Positions 32,716-39,725 of a DNA stretch of 64,000 nucleotides are shown here, piece after piece. The DNA comes from Rhodothermales bacterium (GTDB lineage: Bacteria; Bacteroidota; Rhodothermia; Rhodothermales; Bin80). The stretch covers positions 2,816,852 to 2,880,851 of the forward strand of contig CATQHT010000003.1 of the NCBI GenBank assembly GCA_958296045.1, read 5' to 3'. The number at the start of each line of letters is the position of its first letter. Position 1 is the stretch's first letter. Below the pieces are notes generated by a model. The model was not told the DNA's origin, did not search any database, and worked only from the letters and a program-made list of their open reading frames with translations. The position numbers and the translations under genes were made by a program.

Positions 32716-32959
32716 CCTGAAAATCGCCGCCACCCCACAGACACAGGTCCTACCCGTGCGCGCCCGCGCATAAGCTCCACTGTGCCGCTCTTGAGCGCAA
32801 GACGCGCACAGCAGTTCACAACCAGCCAAGCGCCCAGCGTGCGCCCACCACCGGCATTGTGGTGGATGCGAACAGCGATCCGAGTAGCCGGTGGCAAAAA
32901 GTATCAGACAAGCTACGGGCGTTGGGCATCCAACCTCCAGATCAGATGGAAAGAGAGGC
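32716..32959. other. Upstream flank of the intron locus
   Basis: No gene recognised. The last bases before intron A are GAAAGAGAGGC, which would be the 5' exon of the outermost intron. Confidence 0.4.
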
Positions 32960-33084
32960 GTGCGCCAGGCTAACTGGCGTTAGTACAGGGGGTGCAAGTC
33001 CCCCGTTGTGAAAGATTAACCAACTGCACATCTCCTCGAGCCGTGCGTCTGTACTCGCGAGGGTGCGGGCGAAGCGTCGGTAGA
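32960..33084 (+). mobile_element. Group II intron A, 5' fragment (nt 1-125)
   Basis: Starts GTGCGCCAGG like introns B, C and D and is collinear with them for 125 nt, ending GCGTCGGTAGA. The next position is the first base of intron B. The continuation of A (nt 126 on, GGCGCGTGTGGG) is found at 39540, directly after the 3' end of B. A was therefore split by insertion of B. Confidence 0.85.
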
Positions 33085-33471
33085 GTGCGCCAGGCTAACT
33101 GGCGATAGTACAGGGGGTGCAAGTCCCCCGTTGTGAAAGACTAACCATCTGCACATCTCCTCGAGCCGTGCGTCTGTACTCGCGAGGGTACAGGCGAAGC
33201 GTCGGTAGAGGCGCGTGTGGGCAGGGCTAATGAGCACCGAAAACGCTATCGTCCGGGATGCCGAGGCTTTTCTATCGGTCGAAGGCAACACCTTCTTTGC
33301 CGCTAATGGTGAGGCGGAGGAGGGTCCCGCGGTGTCCAAGAACCCAGGCACGCACGTACGTACTACGCCGGGACCTGGGAGGTCTCTCCATTACCCGTCC
33401 CTTCGGGGAGGGTCGCCAAAGCGTAGGCTAAATGCTGATCGGAGGATGTACGGTGGAGAGAAGTCAGATGC
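33085..33471 (+). mobile_element. Group II intron B, 5' part (ORF-less intron)
   Basis: Starts GTGCGCCAGG. The first ~300 nt closely match C and D; the next ~90 nt are diverged but keep the helix pattern (CCCGTCCC paired with GGGAGGG, where C/D have different paired bases). It ends GTCAGATGC, where intron C begins. Its 3' part is at 39223-39539. Confidence 0.85.
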
Positions 33472-33832
33472 GTGCGCCAGGCTAACTGGCGTTAGTACAG
33501 GGGGTGCAAGTCCCCCGTTGTGAAAGACTAACCATCTGCACATCTCCTCGAGCCGTGCGTCGGTACTCGCGAGGGTACAGGCGAAGCGTCGGTAGAGGCG
33601 CGTGTGGGCAGGGCTAATGAGCACCGAAAACTTCATCGTCCGGGATGCCGAGACTTTGCATTTGGTCGAAGGCAACACCTTCTTTGCCGCTAATGGTGAG
33701 GCGGAGGAGGGTCCCGCGGTGTCCAAGAACCCAGGCACGCACGTACGTACTACGCCGGGACCTGGGAGGTCTCCGTGTCACCCTGGAGTCGTTCAGGGTC
33801 GCGAAAGAGAGGGTTAATCCCCGTAACTGGAG

Positions 33833-36800
33833 ATGAACGGCATGGAGAAGTCCGATACAGGAATAGTAGCTAAGAAAGCAGCGAACAAGGGGCGTAGCCG
33901 CCCGGCGGAGCTGCCGGAGCCAAGTCCTGTACCTGAGGGGAAACTGGAAAACTCTAACACTGTCCGGGCGCGGGATCGGGTAGCGGTGCAACAAGGAGCG
34001 GACCGGTTGCGACAATTCGTGAAGCGGAAACCCAAGGAGAAGCTCACGACGCTTCTGCACCATATCACGGTGAAATCGCTGCGGCATGCCTTCTATCGTT
34101 TAAAGAGGAAGGCAGCGCCAGGCGTGGACGGCGTGACATGGGCGGAGTACGAGGTTGGATTGACAGCGCGTTTGGCTGACTTACATGACCGCGTGCACAG
34201 CGGAGCGTACCGGGCGATGCCGTCCAGGCGGGTTGAGATACCCAAGCCAGATGGCAGTACACGACCGCTCGGCATTGCGGCACTGGAGGACAAGATTGTC
34301 CAGGCTGCGGTGGCGATCTGTATCCTGCTCCCGATCTATGAGGAGGAGTTTCTTGACTTCAGCTATGGGTTTAGGTACAAGCGGAAGGCGCATGATGCGT
34401 TGGACGCGTTGGCCTATGCGATCGAGCGTACGAAGGTCAACTGGATTGTTGATGCGGACATACGTTCTTTCTTTGACATGGTGGACCAGGGCTGGTTGAT
34501 TCGGTTTCTGGAGCACCGCATAGCGGACAAACGGGTCATTCGGCTGATCATCAAATGGCTCAAGGCAGGCGTAATGGAGGCCGGTGTTTTGCGGGACAGT
34601 CCGATGGGCACCCCGCAAGGCGCGGTAATTTCGCCGATACTGGCGAATGTGTACCTGCATTATGTTCTGGACCTGTGGTACGATAAGCGATGGCGCGTGC
34701 GGGTGGCGTGGGGGGAAACCTGCCTTGTCCGTTATGCGGACGACTTTGTGGTAGGCTTCCAGCGGAAGCACGACGCGCAGCGTTTTCTAAGGGATCTGTG
34801 TGTCACGTACAGGCATGGAGGTGAAAGTATGAGGTAGGAAAAAGAGCCTGATAACTGCGTGAGGGATGGAGGTAGGCCCTCCGCAGCCGCCAGTCAGGTG
34901 GAGGCTGCAAACCGCCCACTGCTGCTGCGCTTAAGAGGCGTGGTGGTTAGCGAGCTGGGAAAAGGCGGGGAAGTACCCCGTCAGGTGCGAGTCGTCGAAG
35001 TCGAACGAAAGTGAACCGTCGAAGACGTGTCGAAAAAGATAGACGATGTCAAAACCAGGGTAGAGATCCGTCCCTGGGACGAGGTCGGAGGGGTCCTGAA
35101 GCTTGTCCGATCGGCATCCGGCATATAGGCGGCGAGAGCGCGACTCAGGCCCTTGCGTGGAACGTGAGAACCTGTCGGAGTGATGCTAAGGGAGCCTGGC
35201 AAGTGGGCAATACCCACAAGTCATTGAGTACCAATGCACTCCACAGGGGCGGACTGTCTCGTAGTAGTGATGATGATCCTGTAATGGGATCGGAGCGAAG
35301 GGGACAGCTCGTGCGGCTAACATCATCAGAGCAACTCAAAAGGGAAGGACTCAGATGAAGAAAGCAAAGCCGTTTCCAGTCTCCCAGGCTCAGGTCTGGG
35401 AGGCATGGCGACGAGTGAAGAGGAACCACGGTGGAGCGGGAGTGGATGGCATGACCCTTGCCGACTTTGAAGCTAATCTAGAGGACAACCTCTATAAGCT
35501 TTGGAATCGTATGGCATCGGGTAGCTACCACCCCAAGCCGGTACGACGGGTGGACATACCCAAGGCGGATGGGAGTACTCGTCCGTTAGGGATTCCCACG
35601 GTGACGGATCGGATTGCCCAGATGGTAGCGAAGATGGCGTTGGAGGAGGATATGGAACGCGAGTTTCATGAAGACTCGTACGGTTATCGGCCGGGAAAGT
35701 CAGCGCATGATGCCCTGAAGAAGACACGTAAGCGCTGCTGGGACAGAGCGTGGGTGTTGGACCTGGATATCAAGGCGTTCTTTGACACGATTGACCATAC
35801 GCTGTTGATGCGTGCTGTACGGAAACATACGAGCGAGAAGTGGCTGCTGCTATATATTCAGCGGTGGTTGACGGCTCCGGTCGTGATGCCCGATGGAGAG
35901 GAGGCAGAGCGGACCATAGGCACCCCGCAAGGGGGCGTAATCAGTCCGATTCTGGCGAATCTGTTTCTACACTACGCCTTTGACAAGTGGATGACGATCT
36001 ATTTTCCGACGATACCCTTTGAGCGGTACGCGGACGACATAGTCTGTCACTGCCAGACGGAGCGCCAAGCACGCAATCTATGGGCAGCACTGGAGCGCCG
36101 CTTAGCGAAGTGTGCGCTGTCGCTGCATCCTGAGAAGACCCGGATAGTGTACTGCAAGCAGTCCAACCGGAAGGGTAACTATCCTGACGTCTCGTTCACC
36201 TTTTTAGGCTTTACGTTTAGGCCACGAAGAGTGAAATCCCGAGGCGGAAGGCTATTCACAGGGTATACGCCTGCCATCAGCCGAAAAGCCGCAAAGGCCA
36301 TTCGGCAAGATGTGCGTAGCTGGCGCTTGTGTCGGCAGACCTCAAGCAGAATGGAGGATCTCGCACGGCACTACAATGCTAAGATACGCGGATGGCTGAA
36401 CTACTACGGGGCCTACAACAAGTGGATCCTGTACCATGTGCTGCAATCCATAGATGGCCATCTGGTGGCATGGGCCCGACGCAAATACAAGCGGTTGCGG
36501 CGCAGCAAGCGCCGCGGATACCGCTGGCTAAGGTCTATGGCCTACCGAAACCCGCACCTGTTTGCTCACTGGCCGGAGCTCCACGGACCCTCTTTATTCA
36601 AATCCAGGCGGCTGCACGAGAAGAGCCGTGTGAGGTGAGAGTCTCACGCACGGTTCTGTGAGAGCCTGGGGGTGAGATTCCCCCAGGCTACTTGACAGGG
36701 CAGCGGATGGCCAAATTTGGCTTATCCCTGCATCCGAAGAAGACTCGCTTGTTGGAATTTGGGCGGTTTGCGGCGGTGAATCGCCGCAGCCGAGGTGAGG

Positions 36801-37240
36801 ATCGTCCCGAGACGTTTGACTTTCTGGGTTTTACGCATTATTGCCGTAGGGACCGCCGCGGTCGTTTCGGATTGGGACGGAAACCGGTGGGGAAGCGAAT
36901 GGCACGAAAGCTGAAAAGCCTGCGTCAGGAGCTTCGCCGTAGGATGCATGCACCGTTACACGCTACAGCCCAGTGGCTGGGGCGCGTACTTCGGGGATGG
37001 CTGAACTACTATGCTGTTCCCACCAGCTTTGTGTTCCTACGAAGGTTCTTTACCCGCCTGAAGCGTGAATGGATGAAAATAATCCGCAGACGTTCGCAGA
37101 AGGATCGCATGACATGGAGTAAGCTGGAGACCATGATTACATGGTGCTGGCCTGCGCTCAAGATCAAACACCCCTGGCCTAATCAACGATATGTCGCCAT
37201 GCACGCCGGTGCGACCCAAGGGAGGAGCCGGATGCGTTAA
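33833..37240 (+). CDS. ltrA: Group II intron reverse transcriptase/maturase of intron C, split by intron E
   Basis: Part 1 is 33833-34797 and part 2 is 36697-37240. Joined, they give 965 + 544 = 1509 nt, a 502-residue frame of the same length as the intact RT at 37658-39166 and almost identical to it. Part 1 has the RT palm with RYADDFVVGF (YADD catalytic pair); part 2 carries the thumb/maturase X region (RGWLNYYAVPTSFVFL). Read without splicing, the protein terminates shortly after GGESMR inside intron E. A functional maturase therefore depends on removal of E. No HNH endonuclease domain is visible. Confidence 0.85.
34798..36696 (+). mobile_element. Group II intron E (1899 nt), nested in the RT gene of intron C
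   Basis: Boundaries come from comparison with the uninterrupted copy: AAGGGATCT / AGGGCAGCGG flank it here and are contiguous in intron D near 38623. 5' end GTGTGTCACG (GUGYG rule) and 3' end CTACTTGAC (AY rule). Domain V at 36623-36656 folds as a 34-nt hairpin (GAGCCGTGTGAGG...ACGGTTC); the domain VI stem CCTGGGGG/CCCCCAGG follows. It is unrelated in sequence to A-D. It encodes its own RT in domain IV. Confidence 0.92.
35355..36638 (+). CDS. ltrA: Group II intron reverse transcriptase/maturase of intron E
   Basis: 427 residues. The start is supported by AAGGGAAGGA about 8 nt upstream. RT fingers-palm motifs: RVDIPKADGSTRPLGIPT, DSYGYRPGKSAHDAL, LDLDIKAFFDTIDH, GTPQGGVISPILANLFLH and RYADDIVCH (YADD catalytic pair). 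Maturase domain: LARHYNAKIRGWLNYYGAYN. There is no C-terminal HNH endonuclease, as in intron lineages that use other priming. It promotes splicing of intron E and probably its spread. Its final codons (SRVR, stop) overlap the first strand of domain V. Confidence 0.93.
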   Translation: MKKAKPFPVSQAQVWEAWRRVKRNHGGAGVDGMTLADFEANLEDNLYKLWNRMASGSYHPKPVRRVDIPKADGSTRPLGIPTVTDRIAQMVAKMALEEDMEREFHEDSYGYRPGKSAHDALKKTRKRCWDRAWVLDLDIKAFFDTIDHTLLMRAVRKHTSEKWLLLYIQRWLTAPVVMPDGEEAERTIGTPQGGVISPILANLFLHYAFDKWMTIYFPTIPFERYADDIVCHCQTERQARNLWAALERRLAKCALSLHPEKTRIVYCKQSNRKGNYPDVSFTFLGFTFRPRRVKSRGGRLFTGYTPAISRKAAKAIRQDVRSWRLCRQTSSRMEDLARHYNAKIRGWLNYYGAYNKWILYHVLQSIDGHLVAWARRKYKRLRRSKRRGYRWLRSMAYRNPHLFAHWPELHGPSLFKSRRLHEKSRVR

Positions 37241-37296
37241 CGCGCCCGTCCGGATCTGTGCGGGGGGCCCGGGGAAACCCGGGTCCCTACCGCGAG

Positions 37297-39222
37297 GTGC
37301 GCCAGGCTAACTGGCGTTAGTACAGGGGGTGCAAGTCCCCCGTTGTGAAAGACTAACCATCTACACATCTCCTCGAGCCGTGCGTCTGTACTCGCGAGGG
37401 TACAGGCGAAGCGTCGGTAGAGGCGCGTGTGGGCAGGGCTAATGAGCACCGAAAACTTCATCGTCCGGGATGCCGAGACTATGCATTTGGTCGAAGGCAA
37501 CACCTTCTTTGCCGCTAATGGTGAGGCGGAGGAGGGTCCCGCGGTGTCCAAGAACCCAGGCACGCACGTACGTACTACGCCGGGACCTGGGAGGTCTCCG
37601 TGTCACCCTGGAGTCGTTCAGGGTCGCGAAAGAGAGGGTTAATCCCCGTAACTGGAGATGAACGACATGGAGAAGTCCGATACAGGAATAGTAGCTAAGA
37701 AAGCAGCGAACAAGGGGCGTAGCCGCCCGGCGGAGCTGCCGGAGCCAAGTCCTGTACCTGAGGGGAAACTGGAAAACTCTAACACTGTCTGGGCGCGGGA
37801 TCGGGTCGCGGTGCAACAAGGAGCGGACCGGTTGCGACAATTCGTGAAGCGGAAACCCAAGGAGAAGCTCACGACGCTTCTGCACCATATCACGGTGAAA
37901 TCGCTGCGGCATGCCTTCTATCGTTTAAAGAGGAAGGCAGCGCCCGGCGTGGACGGCGTGACATGGGCGGAGTACGAGGTTGGATTGACAGCGCGTTTGG
38001 CTGACTTACACGACCGCGTACACAGCGGAGCGTACCGGGCGATGCCGTCCAGGCGGGTTGAGATACCCAAGCCAGATGGCAGTACACGACCGCTCGGCAT
38101 TGCGGCACTGGAGGACAAGATTGTCCAGGCTGCGGTGGCGATCTGTATCCTGCTCCCGATCTATGAGGAGGAGTTTCTTGACTTCAGCTATGGGTTTAGG
38201 TACAAGCGGAAGGCGCATGATGCGTTGGACGCGTTGGCCTATGCGATCGAGCGTACGAAGGTCAACTGGATTGTTGATGCGGACATACGTTCTTTCTTTG
38301 ACATGGTGGACCAGGGCTGGCTGATTCGGTTTCTGGAGCACCGCATAGCGGACAAACGGGTCATTTGGCTGATCATCAAATGGCTCAAGGCAGGCGTAAT
38401 GGAGGCCGGTGTTTTGCGGGACAGTCCGATGGGCACCCCGCAAGGCGCGGTTATTTCGCCGATACTGGCGAATGTGTACCTGCATTATGCCCTGGACCTG
38501 TGGTATGATAAGCGATGGCGCGTGCGGGTGGCGTGGGGAGAAACCTGCCTTGTCCGTTATGCGGACGACTTTGTGGTAGGCTTCCAGCGGAAGCACGACG
38601 CGCAGCGTTTTCTAAGGGATCTAGGGCAGCGGATGGCCAAATTTGGCTTATCCCTGCATCCGAAGAAGACTCGCTTGTTGGAATTTGGGCGGTTTGCGGC
38701 GGTGAATCGCCGCAGCCGAGGTGAGGATCGTCCCGAGACGTTTGACTTTCTGGGTTTTACGCATTATTGCCGAAGGGACCGTCGCGGTCGTTTCGGATTG
38801 GGACGGAAACCGGTGGGGAAGCGAATGGCACGAAAGCTGAAAAGCCTGCGTCAGGAGCTTCGCCGTAGGATGCATGCACCGTTACACGCTACAGCCCAGT
38901 GGCTGGGGCGCGTACTTCGGGGATGGCTGAACTACTATGCTGTTCCCACCAGCTTTGTGTTTCTACGAAGGTTCTTTACCCGCCTGAAGCGTGAATGGAT
39001 GAAAATAATCCGCAGACGTTCGCAGAAGGATCGCATGACATGGAGTAAGCTGGAGACCATGATTACATGGTGCTGGCCTGCGCTCAAGATCAAACACCCC
39101 TGGCCTAATCAACGAAATGTCGCCATGCACGCCGGTGCGACCCAAGGGAGGAGCCGGATGCGTTAACGCGCCCGTCCGGATCTGTGCGGGGGGCCCGGGG
39201 AAACCCGGGTCCCTACCGCGAG
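37297..39222 (+). mobile_element. Group II intron D (1926 nt, uninterrupted)
   Basis: 5' end GTGCGCCAGG directly after intron C. Nearly identical to C minus E. Domain V at 39151-39184. Domain VI has a GAAA-capped CCCGGG/CCCGGG stem with a candidate branch-point A in CCCTACC. The 3' end is set at 39222 (GCGAG) because intron B resumes right after it with a length-conserving alignment. Confidence 0.9.
37658..39166 (+). CDS. ltrA: Group II intron reverse transcriptase/maturase of intron D (intact)
   Basis: 502 residues. RT motifs: KRKAAPGVDGVTWAEYE, RRVEIPKPDGSTRPLGIAAL, DFSYGFRYKRKAHDALD, VDADIRSFFDMVDQ, GTPQGAVISPILANVYLH and RYADDFVVGF. Maturase region: LGRVLRGWLNYYAVPTSFVF. An N-terminal extension of ~70 residues precedes the RT0-like region. 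No HNH endonuclease is visible. The stop (39164-39166) lies inside domain V. This intact copy could provide maturase to introns A, B and C in trans. Confidence 0.93.
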   Translation: MNDMEKSDTGIVAKKAANKGRSRPAELPEPSPVPEGKLENSNTVWARDRVAVQQGADRLRQFVKRKPKEKLTTLLHHITVKSLRHAFYRLKRKAAPGVDGVTWAEYEVGLTARLADLHDRVHSGAYRAMPSRRVEIPKPDGSTRPLGIAALEDKIVQAAVAICILLPIYEEEFLDFSYGFRYKRKAHDALDALAYAIERTKVNWIVDADIRSFFDMVDQGWLIRFLEHRIADKRVIWLIIKWLKAGVMEAGVLRDSPMGTPQGAVISPILANVYLHYALDLWYDKRWRVRVAWGETCLVRYADDFVVGFQRKHDAQRFLRDLGQRMAKFGLSLHPKKTRLLEFGRFAAVNRRSRGEDRPETFDFLGFTHYCRRDRRGRFGLGRKPVGKRMARKLKSLRQELRRRMHAPLHATAQWLGRVLRGWLNYYAVPTSFVFLRRFFTRLKREWMKIIRRRSQKDRMTWSKLETMITWCWPALKIKHPWPNQRNVAMHAGATQGRSRMR

Positions 39223-39539
39223 GACCATAGTAGCTACGAAGCCAGCGAACAACGCGTGGATGACCACGGGGCGGAGCCGGTGGAGCCAAGGGTCGCACCC
39301 AAGGGGAAAGCGGAAAGCTGGATTCATGCCGGACTCTGGGCCGGATTTCGTGAATCTGTCCATGGCTGTGGACTCAGAGCCACAGTCGGGGCGCAGGTGT
39401 ACCGCTTACGGCTGGAGGTGGGTATTCCCACTTCCTAACGTCATGCACGCCGGTGCGACCTGCGGGAGGAGCCGTGTGCGTTAACGCGCACGCACGGATC
39501 TGTGCGGGGCCCCAGGGGAAACCCTGGGGCTACCGCGAT
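39223..39539 (+). mobile_element. Group II intron B, 3' part
   Basis: Begins GACCATAGTAGCTACGAAGC, which continues the interrupted B sequence exactly as the RT start of C/D does. After ~110 nt it jumps to the domain IV end. Domain V is at 39469-39502 and domain VI ends CTACCGCGAT (AY rule satisfied). Compared with C/D, paired changes in domain V (GCCGTG/CACGG for GCCGGA/TCCGG) and domain VI (CCCAGG/CCTGGG for CCCGGG/CCCGGG) keep the helices. B totals 387 + 317 = 704 nt and carries no RT gene. Confidence 0.85.
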
Positions 39540-39725
39540 GGCGCGTGTGGGCAGGGCTAATGAGCACCGAAAATTCCATTGTCTGGGATGCCGAGGCTTT
39601 GCTTCTGGTCGAAGGCAACATCTTCTTTGCCGCTAATGGTGAGGCGGAGGAGAGTCCCACGGTGTCTAAGAACCCAGGCACGCACGTACGTACTACGCCG
39701 GGACCTGGGAGGTCTCTGTGTCACC
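39540..39725 (+). mobile_element. Group II intron A, continuation (nt 126 onward, truncated)
   Basis: Starts GGCGCGTGTGGGCAGG, which is nt 126 of introns C and D, right after the 3' end of B. It remains collinear for ~186 nt to GGTCTCTGTGTCACC and is then cut off by repeat R2 copy b. Intron A has therefore lost its 3' domains and cannot splice by itself. Confidence 0.85.

Follow-up and report, generated by a model that had tools for sequence, protein, structure and literature searches.

Nested mobile introns are already known from several systems. In Methanosarcina acetivorans, up to five group II introns lie within one another as a result of repeated homing (Dai and Zimmerly, as summarized in the review PMC4424553). 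In Thermosynechococcus elongatus, introns lacking an open reading frame (ORF), families distinguished by their exon-binding sites (EBS) and twintrons with one conserved landing site were reported, and the authors pointed out that twintrons offer new target sites (main text of PMC2882425). For the Trichodesmium twintron Tr.e.I7/I8, sequential splicing was observed in vivo together with an intron circle (PMC4649490), and the survey program described in PMC8919778 is stated to miss the outer member of twintrons. Here, we analyzed a nest of group II introns at positions 32960-39725 of a 64,000-nucleotide (nt) stretch of Rhodothermales bacterium DNA (assembly GCA_958296045.1, contig CATQHT010000003.1, positions 2,816,852 to 2,880,851; referred to as the window), along with related introns of the same genome (4.78 Mb in 4 contigs). 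At least five intron families, termed O, M, E, F and G, were found inserted into one another in this genome.

As described for Methanosarcina, where the flanks hold no coding ORFs (PMC4424553), the nesting points to repeated site-specific homing into introns. Similar to TeI3/TeI4 of T. elongatus, introns with and without a reverse transcriptase (RT) gene occur together, EBS families have different targets, insertion sequence (IS) elements serve as targets, and an outer family harbors an inner one at a single conserved domain IV site (PMC2882425). Unlike Methanosarcina, to the extent that its nests are covered in PMC4424553 and PMC2882425, the genome studied here combines five families with mutual pairs (M/E, M/F, O/G), landing sites in both ribozyme and RT-gene sequences, and spacer-free tandems. 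Unlike the T. elongatus twintrons, in which the guest is ORF-less (PMC2882425), RT-bearing M introns reside in ORF-less O introns, and four-level nests and five families are present. The inner-then-outer order reported for Trichodesmium is the order predicted here, although that system is a single two-level case, with splicing demonstrated there and predicted here (PMC4649490). Occupied-site tandems in three families and a reciprocal five-family network with retuned EBS1 sequences appear to be new. The word "tandem" is absent from the main text of PMC2882425, and no paper describing spacer-free tandems of bacterial group II introns was among the matches listed from the open-licence literature (titles and abstract openings). 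The circularly permuted group II introns of PMC8637638, as presented there, do not match the window arrangement.

The locus reads as A'(B(C(E) D)), with group II introns nested in one another and boundaries exact to the base (Table 1). Reference introns of five types were used, namely O (706 nt, ORF-less), M (1926 nt, RT-bearing), E (1899 nt, RT-bearing), F (680 nt, ORF-less and similar to E) and G (1968 nt, with a frame that looks RT-encoding). The M type covers C, D and fragment A, which matched the M-type intron in two blast segments (nt 1-130 at 95.4%, nt 126-311 at 93.0%), and B is of O type, though its domain I is closer to M. A preliminary description of the window had proposed the parse A(B(C(E) D)), and its coordinates were confirmed to the base: A stops after nt 125 where B starts and resumes with nt 126 at 39540, B is cut after 33471 and resumes at 39223, the first base of D directly adjoins the last base of C, and E interrupts the RT gene of C. 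Once their parts are joined, B measures 704 nt and C 1926 nt, next to 1926 nt for D and 1899 nt for E. Joined B reads GTCAGATGC followed by GACCATAG, which within the pattern tolerance equals 23 uninterrupted O copies of the genome, and removal of E restores a 502-codon ORF in C. Guest removal thus restores the outer intron, as in a twintron, for B (to the sequence of empty copies) and for C (to an intact ORF). Because the second part of A is not followed by a domain V/VI match, the outermost level is a 311-nt 5' fragment that guest removal does not restore to an intron, and therefore three levels could work. Sequence analysis marks each of B, C, D and E as a complete group II intron, and the nest comprises three potentially working levels inside fragment A. 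The locus had been presented as an exceptional four-level stack, a view that is not supported, as A is a fragment and two other loci of the same genome (L028 and L030) hold four-level nests of complete or nearly complete introns.

The proposed intron ends were checked with covariance models of domains V and VI, which matched at the exact ends of B, C, D and E and gave no match for A. RF00029 matches ended at 36696 (E, 61.7 bits, above the 40-bit cut-off), 39539 (B, 39 bits, E-value 6.7e-6) and at 37296 and 39222 (C and D, 32.2 bits and E-value 3.3e-4 each), the latter three being below the cut-off with E-values from a one-genome search. No RF00029 match was obtained downstream of 39540, and so none after the second part of A, in searches of the window and the genome. 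Domain I of B, C and D matched RF02005 (group-II-D1D4-6) at 170.7-174.2 bits, with a weaker match of 102.8 bits at 39468-39674 spanning the B/A joint, and domain I of E matched RF01999 (D1D4-2) at 106 bits. In predicted folds, the 3' stretches of all four introns form a domain V-like hairpin followed by a domain VI-like hairpin with an unpaired A near the 3' end, and the fold quality of each was equalled by 0 of 200 shuffles. Group II introns usually have a 5' GUGYG start and a 3' AY end; B, C, D and E start with GTGCG or GTGTG, and end with AT (B), AC (E) and AG (C and D). RT/maturase ORFs in domain IV scored above the cut-off of TIGR04416 (NCBIfam) for D and E, which encode intact proteins of 502 and 427 amino acids (aa), respectively; the ORF of C is split by E, and B has no RT. 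The closest solved structures to these RTs are group II RT/maturase chains, e.g., 7uim and the GsI-IIC RT 6ar1, and a search of genome contigs with the D RT retrieved six distant relatives (39-52%) from planctomycete and other records.

The nest was probably built by successive retrohoming, with each event guided by pairing between EBS1 of the incoming intron and the six bases upstream of the landing point in the resident intron (intron-binding site 1, IBS1). In M and O introns, EBS1 was assigned to the last six bases of the loop between GATGCCGAG and GGTCGAAG, which show the pairing expected of it. In the window, EBS1 pairs with the adjacent 5' exon at 6/6 positions for A, B, C and E, D being the exception discussed below. 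Across the genome, 55 M/O 5' ends were detected, of which nine without a readable loop were dropped, and the remaining 46 gave 37 distinct EBS1/IBS1 pairs with a mean of 4.84 pairs out of six, compared to 3.29 with swapped IBS1s, and 0 of 10,000 shuffles attained the observed mean. The loop varies with the site: GCATTT is found in M within O domain IV, TCCCAT in M within E, TTCTTT or TTCTTG in copies at the F nt-160 site, TCTGTT in O inside G and TCTATC in B inside A. M copies cluster by EBS1, as those with GCATTT are 0-21 differences apart, and distances between the three groups are mostly 47-60 (lowest 35). For the E family, EBS1 follows GGGTAG and reads AGATCC inside M, and GAATCC, GGAAGC or GGATTT elsewhere. 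The best-pairing window gave 51/54 pairs over nine copies for E and 37/42 over seven copies for F, at the corresponding loop, and a G window (ATCCGTG) paired 7/7 with the O sequence in L025 and L041, being the best of 594 windows in two near-identical copies only.

The C/D tandem is the most unusual part of the locus because EBS1 of D misfits its own flank, the end of C (1/6 pairs), but fits the exon before C (6/6). The same pattern was observed in two further spacer-free tandems, an E-E tandem in L031, where the second E pairs 0/6 with its own flank vs. 6/6 with the upstream exon, and an O-O tandem in L026 (2/6 vs. 6/6). Reverse splicing at the intact IBS1 upstream of a resident intron would be the simplest reading of these arrangements. 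At the joint, the first G of the resident would then take the place of the first 3'-exon base (A for E, G for M and O). Between C and D there are 20 differences, C shows 11-15 differences from seven other M copies, and D lies nearer to the M copies of L028, L029 and L031 than to C in a tree with weak support. The 20 differences and the missing sister relation (in this weakly supported tree) led us to reject an origin of C and D by local duplication of a single copy, and therefore two different M copies seem to have been brought together.

Alternatively, the tandem could stem from a circular form, with homologous recombination between the resident intron and a circle released by excision, either of RNA reverse-transcribed into DNA or of DNA itself. 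This would yield a joint running exactly from last to first base and, if the circle derived from another copy, the scattered C/D differences as well, and in the Trichodesmium twintron, the inner intron was reported to form a true circle (PMC4649490). However, we consider it unlikely, as it requires an additional step through a complementary DNA circle for which nothing was seen, by itself predicts nothing beyond reverse splicing at an occupied site, and the joint recurs in three families (M, O and E, the first two being related), the first copy being preceded in each case by an IBS1 that pairs at 6/6. It is very improbable that D is the newcomer and was placed at the 3' end of C by EBS1-independent retrotransposition. 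Group II introns are able to insert at poorly matched sites (as stated in PMC2882425), and D has more private differences than C within their subfamily; yet the site offers 1/6 pairs, and in each of the three tandems of the genome it is the downstream copy that misfits, with an upstream exon that fits at 6/6. Finally, an assembly artefact could be suspected in a genome full of near-identical copies, for the tandem as well as for the nest. Such an origin is extremely improbable, given joints exactly on intron ends, 20 differences between C and D, a 4.78 Mb assembly in four contigs, and similar joints in three families and in another genome; exact joints, differences and recurrence led us to reject an assembly-only explanation.

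The other genome came from a scan of 99 genomes, in which RF02005 matched 14 and the D intron 13 (own genome counted in both), with 20 and 3 candidates scored per genome, respectively. Four relative stretches were retrieved, of which one (L095, genome G015, another genus of the same family) was parsed by sequence and the other three were compared by blast only. In L095, an O-like intron directly abuts the 3' end of another, without a spacer, and carries in its domain I an M-like intron whose EBS1 pairs at 6/6.

Within the Rhodothermales genome itself, at least 58 matches to the same domain I model (57 above the cut-off) and at least 61 stretches matching an E query were found, with 150 of 170 candidates scored for the domain I model, 40 of 76 for the E query and 150 of 357 for RF00029. 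A total of 59 stretches around nearly all matches (L numbers) were parsed with four, then five, reference introns; a weak E match at C3:1909086 lies outside this set. Among complete or nearly complete M copies, 12/14 reside inside other introns of the five families, and an ORF of at least 502 codons is kept in 13/14. Four-level nests were resolved at L028 (3769-8978), as E(F(O(M))), and at L030 (6731-14165), as E(M(F(M,O))) with an extra insertion of ~296 nt in the 3' end of the outer M. Both nests are cleaner than the one in the window, and the idea of a unique locus was rejected in view of the genome-wide matches and the parsed nests of the same families. At L025 (10150-11720), an M copy in O gives way after 43 nt to a transposase-like gene (by eye) on the other strand.

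Nine types of intron-in-intron landing sites were tallied both occupied and empty, using sequence patterns with up to three mismatches for the E, F, M and O sites in M, E and F, and loose patterns for the two G types. In the examined loci, 30 O domain IV sites of the kind used by M were counted, of which seven were occupied by an M at the same joint and 23 empty. Occupied and empty counts were two and 12 for the E site and three and 12 for the F site in the M RT gene, four and eight for the M site (nt 163) and one and eight for the F site (nt 858) in E, and five and three for the M/O site (near nt 160) and two and six for the O site (nt 503) in F. G was located at the foot of domain V, in its 3' strand, both in O (complete in L025 and L041, partial in L061) and in E (complete in L010, partial in L034 and L053), and O in turn lands in G at nt 62 (L010). 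The G tally is less clean, as its E domain V/VI row repeats two O hits and its "empty" list for O domain V/VI includes M and other copies, and since G was noticed in passing and no genome-wide search was aimed at it, the G numbers are lower bounds. From the observed insertions, M and E, M and F, and O and G therefore host each other mutually.

Part of this distribution could be explained if composite units had moved whole, e.g., B already carrying M, or C already carrying E. The window E is 100% and 99.9% like the two E copies of L031 and sits at the same base of M. Nevertheless, such movement is doubtful as a general route: M hosts are spread over several EBS1 subfamilies of O with 23 of the 30 O sites empty, and the window C is no obvious closest relative of the M of L031, from which it differs at 12 positions, as it does from several others. 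Independent homing is the simpler explanation, and unit movement could apply in single cases. Going one step further, we lean slightly towards a reading in which the at least five families form a closed food web, with targeting RNA tuned to one another's ribozyme and RT sequences, and also accumulate at home sites that they already occupy. Within that reading, and with the same slight preference, each downstream intron of a stack would be without a 5' splice partner until the one above leaves. The counterpart of the O landing site within M itself (CGATAC^AGG; caret, landing point) is present in the window at 33850-33869 and 37675-37694 and, aligned by hand, forms 4/6 pairs with M EBS1. This weaker pairing may protect M from itself.

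Several observations weigh against guided retrohoming as set out above. In the E-E tandem, G replaces A as the first base of the 3' exon, and an EBS3/IBS3 match would therefore be lost there. Polarity is mixed in L026, where the downstream O is nearer to the O of L016 (97.7%) and the upstream O is near that of L009 (99.15%), and L016 and L009 each carry a single O at copies of the repeat that also hosts L026. These three loci are compatible with upstream reinsertion, with the order not settled. All but one of the 14 extracted M copies, including those ending at 37296 and 39222 in the window, terminate in AG and not in the usual AY, and the remaining copy was cut one base short. Further flank misfits were found in L043 (1/6), L015 and L029:11562 (3/6 each) and eight copies with 4/6, and the absolute pairing scores of E and F are inflated because their windows were picked as the best among several hundred columns. 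Moreover, M copies of the GCATTT type also occur outside the five families (L029, L036), and the TCTGTT type seen in O inside G recurs in the O of L034, which is not within an intron. Overall, EBS1 sequences appear to fit the site in the host intron, though the types are not strictly host-specific. Separately, the O introns of L009, L016, L013 and L026 all sit at the identical base of a repeated IS-like element whose flanks are 91-97% alike.

Under successive retrohoming, B would have landed in A first, followed by an M copy (D) in B domain IV at AGATGC^GACC. Another M copy, C, distinct from D, would then have inserted behind that AGATGC, where the first G of D had taken the place of GACC, creating the spacer-free joint, and E would have landed in the C RT gene at GGATCT^AGGG. 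For splicing, E would exit from C and restore the maturase ORF, C would exit and bring AGATGC next to D, and D, now provided with its IBS1, would follow; with domain IV whole, B would then exit and the A fragment would stay. An RT supplied by intact M copies (e.g., D) could act in trans on B and C. As D has no 5' partner until C is gone, a 5'-to-3' order or a one-step removal of C and D together is predicted.

Table 1 Features of the nested intron locus in the window and of the G landing site in related loci.
Feature	Position	Strand	Description
IBS1 of A (AGAGGC)	32954..32959	+	6/6 pairs with A EBS1 GCTTCT at 39601-39606
A, first part	32960..33084	+	5' fragment of a group II intron of M type, nt 1-125
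IBS1 of B (GGTAGA), inside A	33079..33084	+	6/6 pairs with B EBS1 TCTATC at 33271-33276
B, first part	33085..33471	+	ORF-less O-type intron, domains I to IV
IBS1 AGATGC in B domain IV	33466..33471	+	6/6 pairs with EBS1 GCATTT of C (33658-33663) and D (37483-37488)
C, first part	33472..34797	+	M-type, with an RT/maturase ORF from 33833
IBS1 of E (GGATCT) in C RT gene	34792..34797	+	6/6 pairs with E EBS1 AGATCC at 35064-35069
E	34798..36696	+	Second intron type, in C RT gene; RF01999 match 34868-34986; RT ORF 35355-36638; domains V/VI 36621-36696
C, second part	36697..37296	+	Remainder of ORF; domains V/VI at 37223-37296
D	37297..39222	+	M-type intron, head to tail with C; 502-aa RT ORF 37658-39166; domains V/VI 39149-39222
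B, second part	39223..39539	+	Remainder of domain IV; domains V/VI at 39467-39539
A, second part	39540..39725	+	nt 126-311; no domain V/VI match after it
G	L025 5657-7624; L041 5654-7621	-	Landing site CGCACGG[AT]T^CTGTG
G	L010		Landing site CGCACGG[AT]T^CTGTG

Any relevance of these introns to host genes would rest on open frames. When the flanks of 29 outer elements were joined, 10/29 gave frames open for more than 130 codons on both sides, the 95th percentile of mismatched-flank controls. The frames run in sense with the intron at L011, L012, L033, L034, L038, L042 and L054, and antisense at L027, L031 and L050, where the introns cannot splice from RNA of that gene. Several of the long-frame proteins are transposase-like by eye. 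Pfam was run on three of them: in L012, M1 peptidase domains end before the joint and HEAT repeats follow it, in L034, a Mu-type transposase C-terminal domain lies after the joint, and L033 gave no Pfam match. The joined flanks of A in the window contain no long ORF (28 codons on the shorter side). Outer introns or nests lie in sense inside long open frames at L033 (5109-8420), L034 (5657-8287), L012 and L038, with the family of L033 and L038 unconfirmed, and splicing may therefore matter to the gene in these four cases. At L027 (7384-8090), an O intron lies antisense within a long ORF that looks, by eye, like a fusion of aspartokinase and diaminopimelate decarboxylase.

The genome would offer a natural test bed for the spread of introns that use other introns as landing places, and the occupied and empty versions of nine site types provide natural controls for homing, the use of maturases in trans and a forced splicing order. 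If our reading is correct, it would become a testable idea that mobile introns escape the cost to their host by living on other introns with retuned guides, and, equally open to testing, that piling up copies at a single target is enough to encode a splicing order in DNA.

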